The notes under the pieces were generated by a model, which saw only the letters and a list, made by a program, of their open reading frames with translations, was not told the origin of the DNA and ran no database searches. DNA of 64,000 nucleotides. Source: Thermosinus carboxydivorans Nor1. Its GTDB lineage: Bacteria; Bacillota; Negativicutes; Sporomusales; Thermosinaceae. The stretch is taken from contig NZ_AAWL01000007.1 of assembly GCF_000169155.1 (NCBI RefSeq), positions 1 to 64,000 on the forward strand, written 5' to 3'. Made by a program: the position numbers and the translations under genes. Position 1 is the stretch's first letter. Each line of letters opens with the position of its first letter. Positions 3,953 to 54,321 of this stretch are shown here, in pieces.

Positions 3953-4216
3953 GTGCATCTAAGGTTCGAGCCGGCTTATCAGCATAAATACAAAAAACTG
4001 CCGGCGATGGAACCCATGAGCAAGGCAAGGTTTTGCTGGCAGCATTACGATTTTAAAAAGCTTGAAAAGGTGCAAGAAGTCATAAAGAACCTATTAAAAA
4101 CTGCAGAAACAGCAAGTCGAAAGCGGGCAATTACAGAGGTTTGGCGATACATTCGGAACAATTGGGATGGGATTACTAAATTATCAGCTGCACGCTTTAC
4201 CGGTCTTGACGATTGA
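3953..4216 (+). pseudogene. Possible transposase C-terminal fragment
   Basis: An 87-residue open frame with a basic, helical sequence ending in EVWRYIRNNWDGI. The NNWDGI phrase resembles the end of UPF0236/ISLre2-type transposases, but the usual following region is absent and no ribosome binding site or inverted repeats were found. Family assignment is weak; it may be a remnant or a short unknown gene. Confidence 0.3.
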
Positions 4217-4348: not shown

Positions 4349-4378
4349 TTGACAGTGTTTATATCGGCGTGTTAATAT
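4349..4378 (+). promoter_or_regulatory. Promoter of the SAM-I riboswitch transcript
   Basis: Consensus TTGACA at 4349-4354 and TAATAT at 4373-4378 with an 18-base spacer, about 25 bases before the riboswitch. Confidence 0.6.
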
Positions 4379-4400
4379 CTAAAGTAATTAAATAAGCCAC

Positions 4401-4503
4401 TCTTATCCAGAGAGGTCGAGGGACTGGCCCGATGACACCCGGCAACCAGCGGCAACGCATGGTGCTAATTCCAGCAGGAGCAATCCTGGAAGATGAGAGG
4501 AGA
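4401..4503 (+). promoter_or_regulatory. SAM-I (S-box) riboswitch
   Basis: The conserved S-box elements are present in order: CTTATCCAGAGAGGTCGAGG, GGCCCGATGACACCCGGCAACC, a variable hairpin, GGTGCTAATTCCAGCAGG and GATGAGAGG. High S-adenosylmethionine should favour the terminator at 4518-4543 and switch off the downstream genes. The first downstream frames are three DUF2292 proteins. Confidence 0.97.
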
Positions 4504-4517
4504 GGTATGCTAACATA

Positions 4518-4543
4518 AATCCTTTCCTCGGAAAGGATTTTTT
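4518..4543 (+). terminator. Riboswitch-controlled attenuator
   Basis: AATCCTTTC, loop CTCG, GAAAGGATT, then TTTTTG. It directly follows the SAM-I aptamer and precedes the first DUF2292 gene, the standard off-switch position. Confidence 0.9.
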
Positions 4544-4591
4544 GTTTGCCGCTGACTGATTATTAAAGAGTAAAGTAGGGAGGAAATGGCT

Positions 4592-4756
4592 ATGGCGGTT
4601 AGCAGTAGCATGAATACATCCGACATCCTGCCGCCCCGGGTCTGGGAAAAGATTGAGGCGGCAATCCGCACAGTAGGATACGGTTCAATCACGATCATCG
4701 TTCAGGACGGGAGAGTTATCCAGATCGAAATAAACGAGAAAATAAAGCTGGTCTGA
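4592..4756 (+). CDS. YezD/DUF2292 family small protein, copy 1
   Basis: A 54-residue protein whose core (GYGSITIIVQDGRVIQIE, then EKIKL) matches the YezD/DUF2292 pattern of a short helix followed by a beta hairpin with QDGKVxQIExTEKxR. GGGAGG at 4577-4583 fits ATG 4592 better than the in-frame ATG at 4586. It is the first gene after the SAM-I attenuator. The biochemical function of the family is unknown; members often sit beside sulfur-assimilation genes, which agrees with the riboswitch and the downstream cysK. Confidence 0.75.
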   Translation: MAVSSSMNTSDILPPRVWEKIEAAIRTVGYGSITIIVQDGRVIQIEINEKIKLV

Positions 4757-4774
4757 TGGGAAAGGGGAAGCGAG

Positions 4775-4966
4775 ATGGACGCGAAAACAAATGGGGTCAG
4801 CAACTTTAAGAGCGGGGCTGTCAGGGCGGAAATTCTCAAAGCCCTCAGTGGTCTTCAGTACGGGCAAGTGGTCATTCAAATAAAAGACGGGAAAGTGACC
4901 CAGATCGACAGAACCGAGAAGAGGCGCCTGCCGAGACTGGAAGGTGTGGACGGCGACGGCATTTGA
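4775..4966 (+). CDS. YezD/DUF2292 family small protein, copy 2
   Basis: A 63-residue paralogue and the closest to the family consensus: EILKALSGLQYGQVVIQIK, DGKVTQIDRTEKRRL. It ends in an acidic Gly/Asp tail (GVDGDGI) that recurs in copy 3. AGGGGAAG precedes the ATG. It starts 18 bases after copy 1, so the two are co-transcribed under the SAM-I riboswitch. Confidence 0.8.
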   Translation: MDAKTNGVSNFKSGAVRAEILKALSGLQYGQVVIQIKDGKVTQIDRTEKRRLPRLEGVDGDGI

Positions 4967-5034
4967 TTTCAGGGCAATCATAAAACTGAAGCTGGGGATA
5001 TGTGAGATTAAGATAGGGAACAGAGGTGAGCGAT

Positions 5035-5217
5035 ATGGCTTGCGATGCTGGCGTTACTGATACGGCTGCGCGCGACGCGGCAGTGACAACAACGGCGGAT
5101 AATAAAAGCAGCATCGATTATGAAATTATAATTGTCGTAAGACAGGGCAACGTGGTACGGTTTGAAAATAAAGTCAGGGTGCCACATTTGGAAGGGACTA
5201 ATGGCGATGGTATTTAA
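5035..5217 (+). CDS. YezD/DUF2292 family small protein, copy 3 (divergent)
   Basis: A 60-residue diverged paralogue: the hairpin IDYEIIIVVRQGNVVRFENKVRVP keeps the hydrophobic pattern, and the tail GTNGDGI matches copy 2. An upstream GTG (5026) is in frame, but GAGGTG overlaps it and places ATG 5035 at good distance. The N-terminal helix is Ala/Thr-rich and lacks the family's ILKALxGI phrase, so this copy may have changed role. It is the last of three tandem copies before a strong terminator. Confidence 0.65.
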   Translation: MACDAGVTDTAARDAAVTTTADNKSSIDYEIIIVVRQGNVVRFENKVRVPHLEGTNGDGI

Positions 5218-5307
5218 AAACTGCTAAGTAAAAAAGCCATAGACACCAATAGCTACATGTGTTAAACTAAAATCAAGTAAATAACTCTGAGCTGATCAGT
5301 AAGACTG

Positions 5308-5355
5308 AAGGCTGAGGTAGAGTCCCACTGGGACTTTACTTCAGCTTTATTTTTT
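5308..5355 (+). terminator. Terminator after the DUF2292 trio
   Basis: A near-perfect 18-19 bp stem (GGCTGAGGTAGAGTCCC and GGGACTTTACTTCAGC) with a 4-base loop, followed by TTTATTTTTT. It separates the DUF2292 genes from larE, and might instead act as an attenuator in a larE leader. Confidence 0.85.
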
Positions 5356-5478
5356 GCTCTTAATCACGGGAGGGAGAGTATGCTGAACAAGGACTAACTA
5401 TACCGCTTTTTCGGCAAACTCTGCTGCCAGAGGTCGGAGTGGCTGGCTAGCGCAAGCTCTTGGCGACCAAGATACTAA

Positions 5479-5583
5479 ACATCGGGGTCGGCGGTCTGGT
5501 GGCTGGCGAAGGCCTATACTGACCTTATTGTACATATCGGTGAACAGGCGGGCGAAGAGTATATTTTGATACTGGAGCGGTAA
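5479..5583 (+). other. Short coding-like remnant upstream of larE
   Basis: After a stop at 5476 one frame encodes 34 residues ending LIVHIGEQAGEEYILILER and TAA, without a start codon or ribosome binding site. The composition looks protein-like but I cannot assign a family. It may be the tail of a deleted gene. Confidence 0.25.
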
Positions 5584-5609
5584 CTTCCAGCGGAAGGAGA
5601 AGCGTAACT

Positions 5610-6443
5610 ATGAAAGATACTAACGTCAAACTGCAGCAACTCAACGTGTTGTTGGCCGAACTGGGCAGCGCGGTCATTGGTTTTTCTGGCGGCACTGACA
5701 GCGCCTTCCTGGCAGCGGCGGCTTACCGTGTTCTCGGTGAACGGGCGGTGGCCGTCACTTGCTACTCGGCTACCCTGCCGGAAAGCGAGCGGATGGAAGC
5801 AGCTATCACCGCCCGCCAGATCGGCATCCGGCATGTGCTATTACCACAAAACGAATTGGATAGCGATGACTTCGTGCGTAACGACGCCGACCGTTGTTAC
5901 CATTGTAAGAAGGGGCGTTTTTCGGCTCTGGCGGCCTGGGCTGCGGCCCATGGCTATCATTGGGTGCTGGAGGGGGCCAATGCCGATGATGTCGGCGACT
6001 ATCGGCCGGGACTACGAGCCCTGAGCGAACTTGCCGTCGTGCGCAGCCCCTTGTTGGAGGTCGGTTTAACTAAGGCGGAAATTCGCGAGCTGTCGCGGCA
6101 ATGGGGGCTGCCAACCTGGAACAAGCCTAGCGCCGCCTGTTTGTCGTCGCGGGTGGCCTACGGTCAGCCGATAACGGCGGCCAAACTTGCCCAGATCGAA
6201 AAGGCCGAAGCTATATTAAAGAAATACTGCCAGGGGCAAATTAGGGTCAGACACCACGGTGGGCTGGCCCGTATCGAGGTGGAACCGGCAGAGATAGCCC
6301 GCCTTACCCGCCCGGAAGTGGCTAGGGAGATTGCAGAACAACTGAATGCTTTAGGGTTTACCTATGTTGCGGTGGATCTTTCGGGTTACCGTACCGGTAG
6401 CATGAACCAAGTTCTTGACCTCGAGAATAAACAAAAAGCTTAG
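5610..6443 (+). CDS. larE: ATP-dependent sacrificial sulfur transferase LarE
   Basis: LarE activates a pyridinium carboxylate with ATP and donates sulfur from its own cysteine when building the nickel-pincer nucleotide cofactor. The PP-loop SGGTDS is at residues 26-31, an RCYHCK motif near 95-100, and C177 in KPSAACLSSR corresponds to the known sacrificial cysteine (Cys176 in the Lactiplantibacillus enzyme). Length 277 residues is normal. AAGGAGAAG precedes ATG. larB and larC are not in view, so a general sulfur-transfer role is also possible. cysK follows 12 bases later. Confidence 0.9.
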   Translation: MKDTNVKLQQLNVLLAELGSAVIGFSGGTDSAFLAAAAYRVLGERAVAVTCYSATLPESERMEAAITARQIGIRHVLLPQNELDSDDFVRNDADRCYHCKKGRFSALAAWAAAHGYHWVLEGANADDVGDYRPGLRALSELAVVRSPLLEVGLTKAEIRELSRQWGLPTWNKPSAACLSSRVAYGQPITAAKLAQIEKAEAILKKYCQGQIRVRHHGGLARIEVEPAEIARLTRPEVAREIAEQLNALGFTYVAVDLSGYRTGSMNQVLDLENKQKA

Positions 6444-6455
6444 GAGGGAACAAAA

Positions 6456-7394
6456 ATGGCTAAAATAGCGACGAATTTAACAGATCTCATCGGCAACACC
6501 CCGCTTCTGGAGCTGAGGAATTACAACAGAGCAAAGAGTCTGAACGCCAAGCTCATCGCTAAACTGGAATACTTTAATCCGCTGAGCAGCGTCAAAGACC
6601 GCATCGGTTACGCCATGATCAAGGACGCCGAAGACAAGGGTCTTATCAATAAGGACAGCGTTATTATCGAGCCGACCAGTGGGAACACCGGCATAGCCTT
6701 GGCCTTCGTGGCCGCCGCCAAAGGCTACCGGCTTATCCTTACCATGCCGGAGACGATGAGCATCGAGCGGCGCAATCTGCTCAAGGCGCTGGGTGCGGAA
6801 CTGGTGCTCACGCCAGGGGCGGAAGGAATGAAGGGGGCCATACGTCGGGCCGAGGAACTGGCAGCCGAAATACCCAATTCTTTCATACTCCAGCAGTTTA
6901 AGAATCCTGCCAACCCCGCAATCCATCGCACTACGACTGCGGAAGAAATTTGGAACGACACTGATGGACAAGTAGACATCTTCGTTGGTGGTGTTGGCAC
7001 CGGTGGCACTATCACCGGTGTCGGGGAGGTAATAAAACAGCGTAAACCTTCTTTCAAAGTCGTCGCCGTTGAACCTTTCGACTCGCCCGTTCTCTCCGGC
7101 GGAAAACCCGGTCCTCACAAGATTCAGGGTATTGGTGCCGGCTTCGTGCCTGATGTTCTTAACGTGAAAATAATCGACGAAATCATCAAAGTCAAAAACG
7201 AGGAAGCTTTCGCCACCGCCCGCGAACTGGCAAAGACCGAGGGACTGCTTGTCGGCATATCCAGTGGCGCTGCAGCCTTTGCCGCCACCCAAGTGGCTCA
7301 GCGCCCGGAGAATGCCGGTAAGACCATCGTGGTGTTGCTGCCTGATACGGGGGAAAGGTATCTTTCGACGATGCTTTTCCAGGAAGAACTGTAG
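6456..7394 (+). CDS. cysK: Cysteine synthase A (O-acetylserine sulfhydrylase)
   Basis: PLP enzyme converting O-acetylserine and sulfide to cysteine. K47 in SSVKDR is the PLP Schiff-base lysine; TSGNTG at about 74-79 binds the substrate carboxylate, VGTGGTITG binds the PLP phosphate, and GISSGAAA is near the C-terminus. 312 residues is the normal length. AGGAGGG lies before ATG. The 12-base gap to larE suggests one operon that couples cysteine formation to a sulfur-transfer step; upstream SAM-dependent control of the DUF2292 genes points the same way. Confidence 0.97.
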
Positions 7395-17326: not shown

Positions 17327-17429
17327 GTTTGGAGCTAGGGGAGCCGGGAGGCCGGCTGAGATACAGAACCGCTAATTTCTGTGACCCTTAAACCTGAACT
17401 GGGTAATGCCAGCGTAGGGAAGCTTAAAC
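17327..17429 (+). promoter_or_regulatory. TPP (THI-box) riboswitch
   Basis: The conserved elements are present: AGGGGAGCC, GGCTGAGATACAGAACC, GACCCTTAAACCTGAACTGG and GTAATGCCAGCGTAGGGAAG. The outer arms GTTT..AGCT and AGCTTAAAC can pair. Thiamine pyrophosphate binding should promote the terminator at 17450 and switch off thiD, thiM and thiW. Confidence 0.97.
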
Positions 17430-17449
17430 GATTGGTTTAAGGTCAGTAA

Positions 17450-51635: not shown

Positions 51636-53107
<1,472 letters not shown>

Positions 53108-53160
53108 ATGGGGAGAGTTTGCTCTATCCTTATAGTTGGCGGTAGGAGGTGGATGGTGTT

Positions 53161-54321
53161 TTGCGTCCATTTCTTAAGTATGCGAAAGTGGCTGACCCTG
53201 ACAATCCTCTCGTACTGACCATGGGTGGAACACTAACCGATGTTACCGTGGCTTATGAAACTTACGGGACACTATCGCCTAACCGGGACAACGTAATTTT
53301 GGTGACCCACGCCCTTACTGGCGACAGCCATGTGGCGGCCCACGACGACAAGGACGAAAAAGGTTGGTGGGATGCATTGGTAGGACCGGGACGGCCGATA
53401 GACACCAACCGTTTCTTCGTTATTTGTTCCAATGTTCTGGGCGGATGCCGGGGAACGACGGGGCCGTCCTCGCCGGACCCGGCGACCGGGCGGCCGTACG
53501 GCATGCGGTTTCCCGTCATTACCATACGGGACATGGTCCATGTCCAGAAACGGCTGTTGGAGCAACTTGGCATTTACCGGCTGGTCTTGGTAATCGGAGG
53601 ATCCATGGGCGGAATGCAGGCTTTGGAATGGGGGGTCACTTATCCCGAGTTTATGGATGGTATAATAGCCATTGCGGCTCCCGGTTATTCTTCCGCCCAG
53701 TCCATAGCTTACAATAAAGTGGCGAGGGAAGCGGTGATGCTCGACCCGGCCTGGCGGCAGGGTGATTATTATGGTGGTCCCGGTCCGCAAACCGGCCTGT
53801 CGATCGCCCGCGGCCTGGGGATGATTACCTACCAAAGCGAGCCGTCAATGGCCGCTAAGTTTGGCAGGAGAATGCGTGGCGGTCAGTTCGAAGTGGAAAA
53901 CTACCTTGACTACCAAGGGATTAGCTTGGTACGTCGGTTTGACGCCAACTCCTACCTTTATTTGCTCAGAGCCCTTGACCTTCATGACCTTGGTGCCGGT
54001 TATGCGTCTTATGAGGCAGCCCTGGCCAGGATTGAAGCTCGTGTTTTAATCGTAGGGGTGAGTTCCGACATTTTGTATCCGGCTTATCAGCAACAGGAGC
54101 TGGTTGAAGTCCTGCGCCGCCTCGGCAAGGCGGCGCGGTATGCCCAGATTGACAGTCCCCACGGACATGACGGGTTTTTGATTGATTTTGATGCGTTAAG
54201 CCCTGTTTTGTCGGACTTTATCAATACGATAGCGCCGCCGGTCCGCTTGCCCTGGGCACAGTCTTTTTTCAGGGCATCAAGTCTGGCCTATTTTGGCGCC
54301 CGGCTGGTTCCCGAGTTTTAA
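53161..54321 (+). CDS. metX: Homoserine O-acetyltransferase MetX
   Basis: Alpha/beta-hydrolase-fold enzyme that acetylates homoserine. TLTDVTVAYETYGTLSPNRD near the N-terminus, nucleophile serine in VIGGSMGGMQALEWG, then a catalytic Asp in GVSSDILYPAYQQ and His in DSPHGHDGFLIDF. AGGAGG at 53145-53150 overlaps the GTG at 53149, so TTG 53161 (386 residues) is more likely the start. It provides the substrate for MetY, encoded just upstream. Confidence 0.94.
   Translation: MRPFLKYAKVADPDNPLVLTMGGTLTDVTVAYETYGTLSPNRDNVILVTHALTGDSHVAAHDDKDEKGWWDALVGPGRPIDTNRFFVICSNVLGGCRGTTGPSSPDPATGRPYGMRFPVITIRDMVHVQKRLLEQLGIYRLVLVIGGSMGGMQALEWGVTYPEFMDGIIAIAAPGYSSAQSIAYNKVAREAVMLDPAWRQGDYYGGPGPQTGLSIARGLGMITYQSEPSMAAKFGRRMRGGQFEVENYLDYQGISLVRRFDANSYLYLLRALDLHDLGAGYASYEAALARIEARVLIVGVSSDILYPAYQQQELVEVLRRLGKAARYAQIDSPHGHDGFLIDFDALSPVLSDFINTIAPPVRLPWAQSFFRASSLAYFGARLVPEF

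Follow-up and report, generated by a model that had tools for sequence, protein, structure and literature searches.

A probable regulatory RNA upstream of sulfur genes in Negativicutes and its co-occurrence with DUF2292 proteins

We found an RNA element in Thermosinus carboxydivorans and its relatives that occurs in multiple copies and appears to be a new, previously unlisted regulatory RNA. Its novelty is provisional and is judged against Rfam 15 and open-access text. The element consists of a promoter, a 22-nt hairpin core (GCUGAUCAG-N4-ACUGAAGGC) and then a terminator that overlaps the hairpin. Its distribution tracks that of the small DUF2292 proteins. We regard it as very probable that the element is a real regulatory RNA, and as likely that it works by a terminator-antiterminator mechanism.

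Results and discussion

The larE-cysK locus

The window, i.e., the whole 64,000-nucleotide stretch of DNA that we analyzed, belongs to a Negativicutes-type genome of 2.89 Mb in 49 contigs (G000). The features of the locus are listed in Table 1. An S-box with attenuator had been proposed in the initial annotation, and the aptamer indeed scores well above the gathering threshold of the SAM-I model. It is a standard member of that family, to which the element at 5290-5355 is unrelated. By analogy, the riboswitch would tie the expression of c1 and c2 (plus c3) to low SAM. The genes after the terminator were correctly named as larE and cysK. The terminator before them is as strong as was claimed, but it is not a standalone signal. 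It belongs to a conserved RNA element, of which it forms the 3′ half, and promoter, hairpin and terminator together make up one conserved unit (5240-5355). Because this unit has its own promoter, larE and cysK could be expressed independently of the S-box transcript.

Table 1 Features of the locus (positions in the window)
Feature	Position	Strand	Evidence or remark
Promoter-like site TTGACA-18-TAATAT, for S-box transcript	4349..4378	+	Consensus match only
SAM-I (S-box) riboswitch aptamer	4400..4499	+	Rfam RF00162, 86.6 bits (gathering threshold 44.4 bits)
Intrinsic terminator, S-box attenuator	4517..4547 (narrower span 4517-4540)	+	
c1: DUF2292 N-type unit, 56 aa, without tail	4586..4756	+	PF10055, 58.7 bits
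c2: DUF2292 C-type unit, 63 aa, C-terminal LEGVDGDGI	4775..4966	+	PF10055, 53.3 bits
c3: degenerate DUF2292 C-type unit, 59 aa, LEGTNGDGI tail kept	5038..5217	+	BLASTP to c2, E = 4e-8
Promoter TAGACA-17-TAAACT, second transcript	5240..5268	+	TTGACA-17-TAAACT in G001
RNA-element hairpin, antiterminator candidate: AGCUGAUCAG-UAAG-ACUGAAGGCU	5290..5313	+	Covariation; model R1, 40.0 bits
Intrinsic terminator (19 pairs at 5308-5348), overlaps 3′ strand of hairpin	5308..5355	+	
larE, ATP-dependent sacrificial sulfur transferase	5610..6443	+	TIGR00268, 308.5 bits
cysK, cysteine synthase A	6456..7394	+	TIGR01139, 483.4 bits

The terminator and larE are about 250 bases apart (5356-5609), and this interval holds no clear gene. 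It includes, at about 5380, a five-codon frame (ATG CTG AAC AAG GAC TAA) with a good ribosome site before it. Between bioB and the S-box lies an ORF (3953-4216) with a weak, sub-cut-off likeness to UPF0236, possibly a transposase remnant. Elsewhere in the window, we noticed a second SAM-I riboswitch (51637-51739), followed by metY- and metX-type genes (51749-54321), and a TPP riboswitch (17327-17437).

Sequence and structure of the RNA element

The pattern CTGATCAG-N4-ACTGAAGGC, allowing at most one mismatch, has about 140 matches in 39 of 60 relatives, compared with one match for the reversed pattern. Genomes contain up to about 25 copies; G000 has two, each behind a DUF2292 pair. Across 96 instances, the core from G(-1) to C(+20) is near-invariant apart from a loop of 4-5 nt; the invariant core is about 18 nt. 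The hairpin comprises P2 (UCAG/CUGA), an internal loop (UGA/AG) and P1 (RGC/GCY). One pattern match, in G388, is an ordinary long palindromic terminator.

Covariation supports the hairpin. In 39 diverse instances, 96% of the cells pair and five of the seven pairs have two-sided changes, among them C-G to U-A, A-U to G-C and G-C to A-U. None of 500 shuffles reached this level, and the signal is lost when the partner is shifted by 1-3 columns. Instances for the alignment were gathered partly with the pattern and partly by relaxed matching together with a promoter and a terminator, such that divergent members are under-represented. A covariance-model match in G214, outside the training set, again shows compensated changes in P1 and P2.

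The 3′ strand of P1 is also the 5′ arm of the terminator (an overlap of 5308-5313 in the window), and hairpin and terminator are therefore mutually exclusive. When the folds are computed alone, the terminator of the window reaches -29.8 kcal/mol and the hairpin -4.9 kcal/mol; the medians over the elements are -23.7 and -4.7 kcal/mol. Given that the terminator is energetically favored, a stabilizing factor would be needed for read-through. A near-consensus promoter precedes most of 95 elements, with the end of its -10 box some 20-30 nt before the element, and 65 of the 95 reach a promoter score of at least 10.5 out of 12.5, versus two in shuffled sequence.

These properties bear on another explanation of the locus, namely an ordinary sulfur-starvation operon in which a SAM-I-controlled, OscA-type DUF2292 protein has some housekeeping role and 5290-5355 is only a conserved terminator. 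The terminator is strong when alone, and OscA does have a link to sulfur starvation (PMC2996968). However, a plain terminator needs neither an invariant, covarying 22-nt hairpin upstream nor a promoter about 20-30 nt ahead, nor repeated siting before sulfur genes. We consider this explanation very improbable, and prefer a regulatory RNA.

No Rfam 15 family, including SAM and T-box, matches 5290-5355 at its gathering threshold, and relaxed E-values yield only matches of the microRNA-hairpin type and chance matches. Nor did the open-access text that we searched, including surveys of bacterial RNAs and of attenuation, contain a match to the element. The gltD and ldh2 motifs that such surveys report from the same class are described as lying before gltD and Ldh_2 genes.

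BglG/LicT RAT sequences and HutP leaders are known cases of protein-dependent antitermination. The element is like these leaders in that a short hairpin lies over an intrinsic terminator with a promoter before it, the folds exclude each other and several copies serve a regulon. Its conserved sequence differs, and its binder is here a candidate.

Genes downstream of the element

Among 77 instances, the first gene downstream is most often cysK (12), followed by genes for an MtaA/URO-D-type methyltransferase (8), a cystine-type ABC permease (8), metN (5), a PatB C-S lyase (5), DUF2292 itself (4), sulfite/nitrite reductase (3) and larE (3). Rarer are metY, metQ, ssuA, LarA, DUF2325, nif genes and a gene for a sulfate-binding protein. 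The genes under the element are thus a sulfur-acquisition regulon with a nitrogenase branch.

In two genomes, G010 and G013, a SAM-I aptamer is followed by an element 60-70 bases on (L048, 2824-2924 and 2985; L052, 2804-2904 and 2974). Judging from this arrangement, the two RNAs may act in series on the methionine transport genes there. In G332 (L242, 6556-6581), the element overlaps the end of a fused DUF2292 gene; its core codes for the final residues of the protein, ..KLIRKAEG, and the GDGI tail is lost.

Co-distribution of the element with DUF2292

We compared the element, as detected by covariance model, with DUF2292 in 220 Negativicutes genomes that are at least 90% complete. It occurs in 52 of the 82 genomes with DUF2292 and in none of the 138 without (Fisher p = 2e-29, a value that ignores shared ancestry and, because the genomes are related, overstates their independence). 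In view of the G388 match, one or two of the 52 may be false positives, which leaves the zero untouched. DUF2325, another small neighbor and the one other gene that we compared with the element, was rejected as its partner, as its distribution does not track the element.

Comparisons within genera agree with this. Of the sampled members of genus g3, only G010, G013 and G016 carry both; G003 and G020 (87% complete) carry neither. Among the sampled members of g16, G332 alone has element and DUF2292, and in g35 the two are present in G058 and missing from G048. In G332 and some other genomes, the element could have been inherited together with the adjoining DUF2292 gene.

Outside the class, the element is clear in G104, G134 and G301 and weaker in G089 and G159; each of these five genomes carries DUF2292. 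Its position is directly behind the DUF2292 genes in G134 and G089. In G301, G089 and G159, it accompanies a tail-less, single-unit DUF2292, so the GDGI tail discussed below is not required for the element. One assembly that is 58% complete (G026) contains a real element and no DUF2292. Three DUF2292-less genomes of the phylum sample (G090, G231 and G244) gave weak model matches (E-values 4e-4 to 0.01). These matches, like those in G162 and G229 and a pattern match in G047, are chance-like: they lack a terminator, are coding or have no sulfur gene.

Given that the element is found, within the class, only in DUF2292 genomes, we suggest that the stabilizing factor is, or requires, a DUF2292 protein. 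That DUF2292 takes part in control of the element is, from these distributions, plausible to a degree just under an even chance. A serious possibility, of only slightly lower probability, is that the element acts as a riboswitch of very small size or is bound by another protein, and that DUF2292 is merely a member of the sulfur regulon within a shared accessory program. Co-distribution does not name the binder, and elements stand before sulfur genes of many kinds, sometimes before DUF2292 itself. Moreover, no element was recognized in 30 of the 82 DUF2292-containing genomes; DUF2292 may therefore have other targets or roles, or variants of the element were missed. On the other hand, a riboswitch or an unrelated binder does not readily account for the complete absence of the element from the 138 class genomes without DUF2292, although nearly all DUF2292-less relatives keep S-boxes. 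In our judgement, a core of about 18 nt is also small for a metabolite aptamer.

DUF2292 proteins in Negativicutes

The domain of c1 and c2 is shared with YezD/DUF2292 (PF10055) and OscA (NF033785). DUF2292 had been described as lacking an assigned activity. This is correct in that no activity is known, and incomplete in that OscA is a studied relative, which in Pseudomonas corrugata is tied to chromate resistance as well as to sulfur starvation (Viti 2009, as cited in PMC2996968) and is linked to a sulfate-transport cluster (PMC2996968, PMC3596284). With 26.7 and 32.8 bits, c1 and c2 stay far below the curated 85-bit OscA cut-off. The single-unit YezD-type proteins that we read lack GDGI, whereas the Negativicutes form has two units and a tail.

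Sixty relatives were sampled for DUF2292 loci. Exactly two units, 138-237 bp apart, are present at 62 of 66 loci, mostly in one open frame of about 115-165 codons that encodes a protein of about 120 aa. The split form occurs in G000, G001, G005, G010, G013, G016, G035/G052 and G040. The c1-type unit stops soon after EKIRL, while the c2-type unit runs on into ..LEG..GDGI; c1 and c2 are the first and second units of the fused relatives, here split. On these sequences, the norm is two units, mostly fused, and not a trio.

The window was said to contain three DUF2292 paralogues, two of which have the same GDGI tail. The tail is indeed common to c2 and c3 and absent from c1. As to paralogy, c1 and c2 pass the 22-bit cut-off of PF10055, but c3 has no Pfam match and is recognizable only by its pairwise likeness to c2 (38% over 39 residues, ..LEG..GDGI tail included). 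It lacks a recognizable N-terminal helix region. An AlphaFold2 model of c2 (pLDDT 65) has a helix (13-25), a hairpin (30-48) and a disordered, low-confidence tail. This predicted fold is compatible with the scheme proposed below and says nothing about RNA. No DUF2292 relative was found by sequence among solved structures.

A second c1-c2 pair with an element is located on contig C26 of the same genome (L007, 3295-4080, minus strand), before a nitrite/sulfite reductase gene. It is 94-95% identical to the copy in the window in two blocks, one of 433 bp (c1-c2, 95%) and one of 114 bp (terminator region), and is a duplication inside this genome. It has no c3, and there is no SAM-I match in the 20 kb that we read there. 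G001, of the same genus, has the S-box, c1, c2, the terminator and cysK, but not c3, and among the relatives c3 was not found beyond the locus in the window. Because c3 is missing from G001 and from the C26 copy, it is most likely, on sequence grounds, a duplicate of c2 that arose locally and decayed but retained the tail.

These results do not favor the earlier view of the triplication as specialized subunits. That three specialized subunits form a hetero-oligomer, or that the proteins carry sulfur, would fit with three adjacent homologues, each with a ribosome site, and with the conservation of the pair as two units. Yet the third copy is degenerate and found only at this locus. A carrier role lacks specific support because cysteine is absent from c2, and a ThiS-type GG tail from both c2 and c3. 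Subunits or carriers thus seem a very unlikely explanation.

By contrast, we are nearly certain that the DUF2292 locus is a sulfur-limitation module, as had been suggested. At 46 of the 62 double-unit loci (34 of 42 genomes), the same strand carries a sulfur gene no more than 3 kb away. At least 21 of 68 loci have a same-strand S-box upstream, and in at least nine of them it is within 500 bp. S-boxes are also carried by nearly all relatives without DUF2292. In a label-free clustering of neighbors, cysK is the commonest (29 genomes), metY-type enzymes are second (28), and methionine ABC transport, larE, BioB/HydE-like radical SAM proteins and sulfite reductase come next. Single genes without sulfur neighbors, which would have spoken against the module, are not the pattern in Negativicutes.

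In relatives, nif clusters (e.g., L054, L056, L074 and L084) contain another DUF2292 subtype (..KMERTEKFIFSSKNKSGYI..), whose tail is likewise GDGI. At such loci, elements precede several nif genes, a link between sulfur and nitrogenase.

The GDGI tail and CysK

All 62 C-units end in G[D/E/S]GI-COOH (47 GDGI, 14 GEGI and one GSGI). Both glycines and the last isoleucine are invariant, making the tail more conserved than most of the domain. It was not found in c1-type units or in the single-unit proteins read from the phylum sample.

E. coli CysE ends in NHTFEYGDGI, of which the last four residues are the same as in the c2 tail. Insertion into CysK requires the C-terminal isoleucine of CysE (PMC12895370; PMC4961446), which contributes about 80% of the binding energy (PMC12895370). 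Other proteins with a C-terminal isoleucine, namely CdiA-CT (GYGI), EGL-9 and CymR, are reported as partners of CysK homologues (PMC12895370; PMC4961446). The C-units share the terminal isoleucine with these proteins, but we saw no sequence relation beyond the tail. The residues of the CysE-peptide site in CysK (as listed in PMC12895370) that include TSGNTG and LQQF are conserved in the CysK of the window when aligned with that of E. coli.

Whether the C-unit tail docks into CysK is, to our estimation, evenly balanced: the idea is well motivated by these likenesses, and conserved tails can serve otherwise. A related explanation is that DUF2292 is purely a post-translational partner of CysK, which it would block, retune or move to MetY, LarE or Nif, with the element controlled by other means. 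In addition to the tail being identical to that of CysE, cysK adjoins DUF2292 (within 3 kb) in 26 of 42 genomes and the peptide site of CysK is intact. CysE itself lacks a C-terminal isoleucine in nearly all relatives read: CysE-type proteins are Ile-ended at one of 30 loci, and that of G000 ends in valine. However, a role limited to CysK leaves unexplained both the co-occurrence with the RNA element and the tail-less single-unit relatives, and we judge it rather unlikely.

A possible two-stage mechanism

We propose that the locus is a two-stage sulfur-limitation module. In the first stage, low SAM would induce the split DUF2292 pair via the SAM-I riboswitch. In the second, transcripts from the larE-cysK promoter would run into the hairpin and terminator, where a trans-acting factor would stabilize the hairpin and permit read-through. 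The GDGI tail of the C-unit would dock in the active site of CysK in the manner of the CysE tail. In this way CysK, an enzyme that binds O-acetylserine and sulfide, would report the cysteine status to DUF2292, and DUF2292, perhaps with CysK, would let the polymerase pass the attenuators of the elements.

CymR is an Rrf2-type DNA-binding repressor. The proposed logic is shared with CymR-CysK in Bacillus, where a regulator of sulfur genes has CysK bound to it as the sensor of sulfur. Unlike CymR, DUF2292 is a tiny helix-hairpin protein, and its proposed target is RNA, not DNA.

The two-stage model as a whole is tentative, with a probability that we put a little below one half. In its most specific form, the double-unit DUF2292 would be a new RNA-binding antiterminator that acts on the GCUGAUCAG...CUGAAGGC hairpin, with CysK gating it via the tail and SAM-I setting its supply. 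Argued from sequence, this form is doubtful.

Conclusions

DUF2292/YezD/OscA proteins, so far without a known activity, gain two testable hypotheses, one from the RNA element that they track and one from a tail identical to that of CysE. As a regulatory RNA of Negativicutes and some other Bacillota, the element would apply to sulfur uptake, cysteine and methionine synthesis and part of nitrogen fixation, and much of the sulfur regulon in these bacteria could be read directly from sequence.
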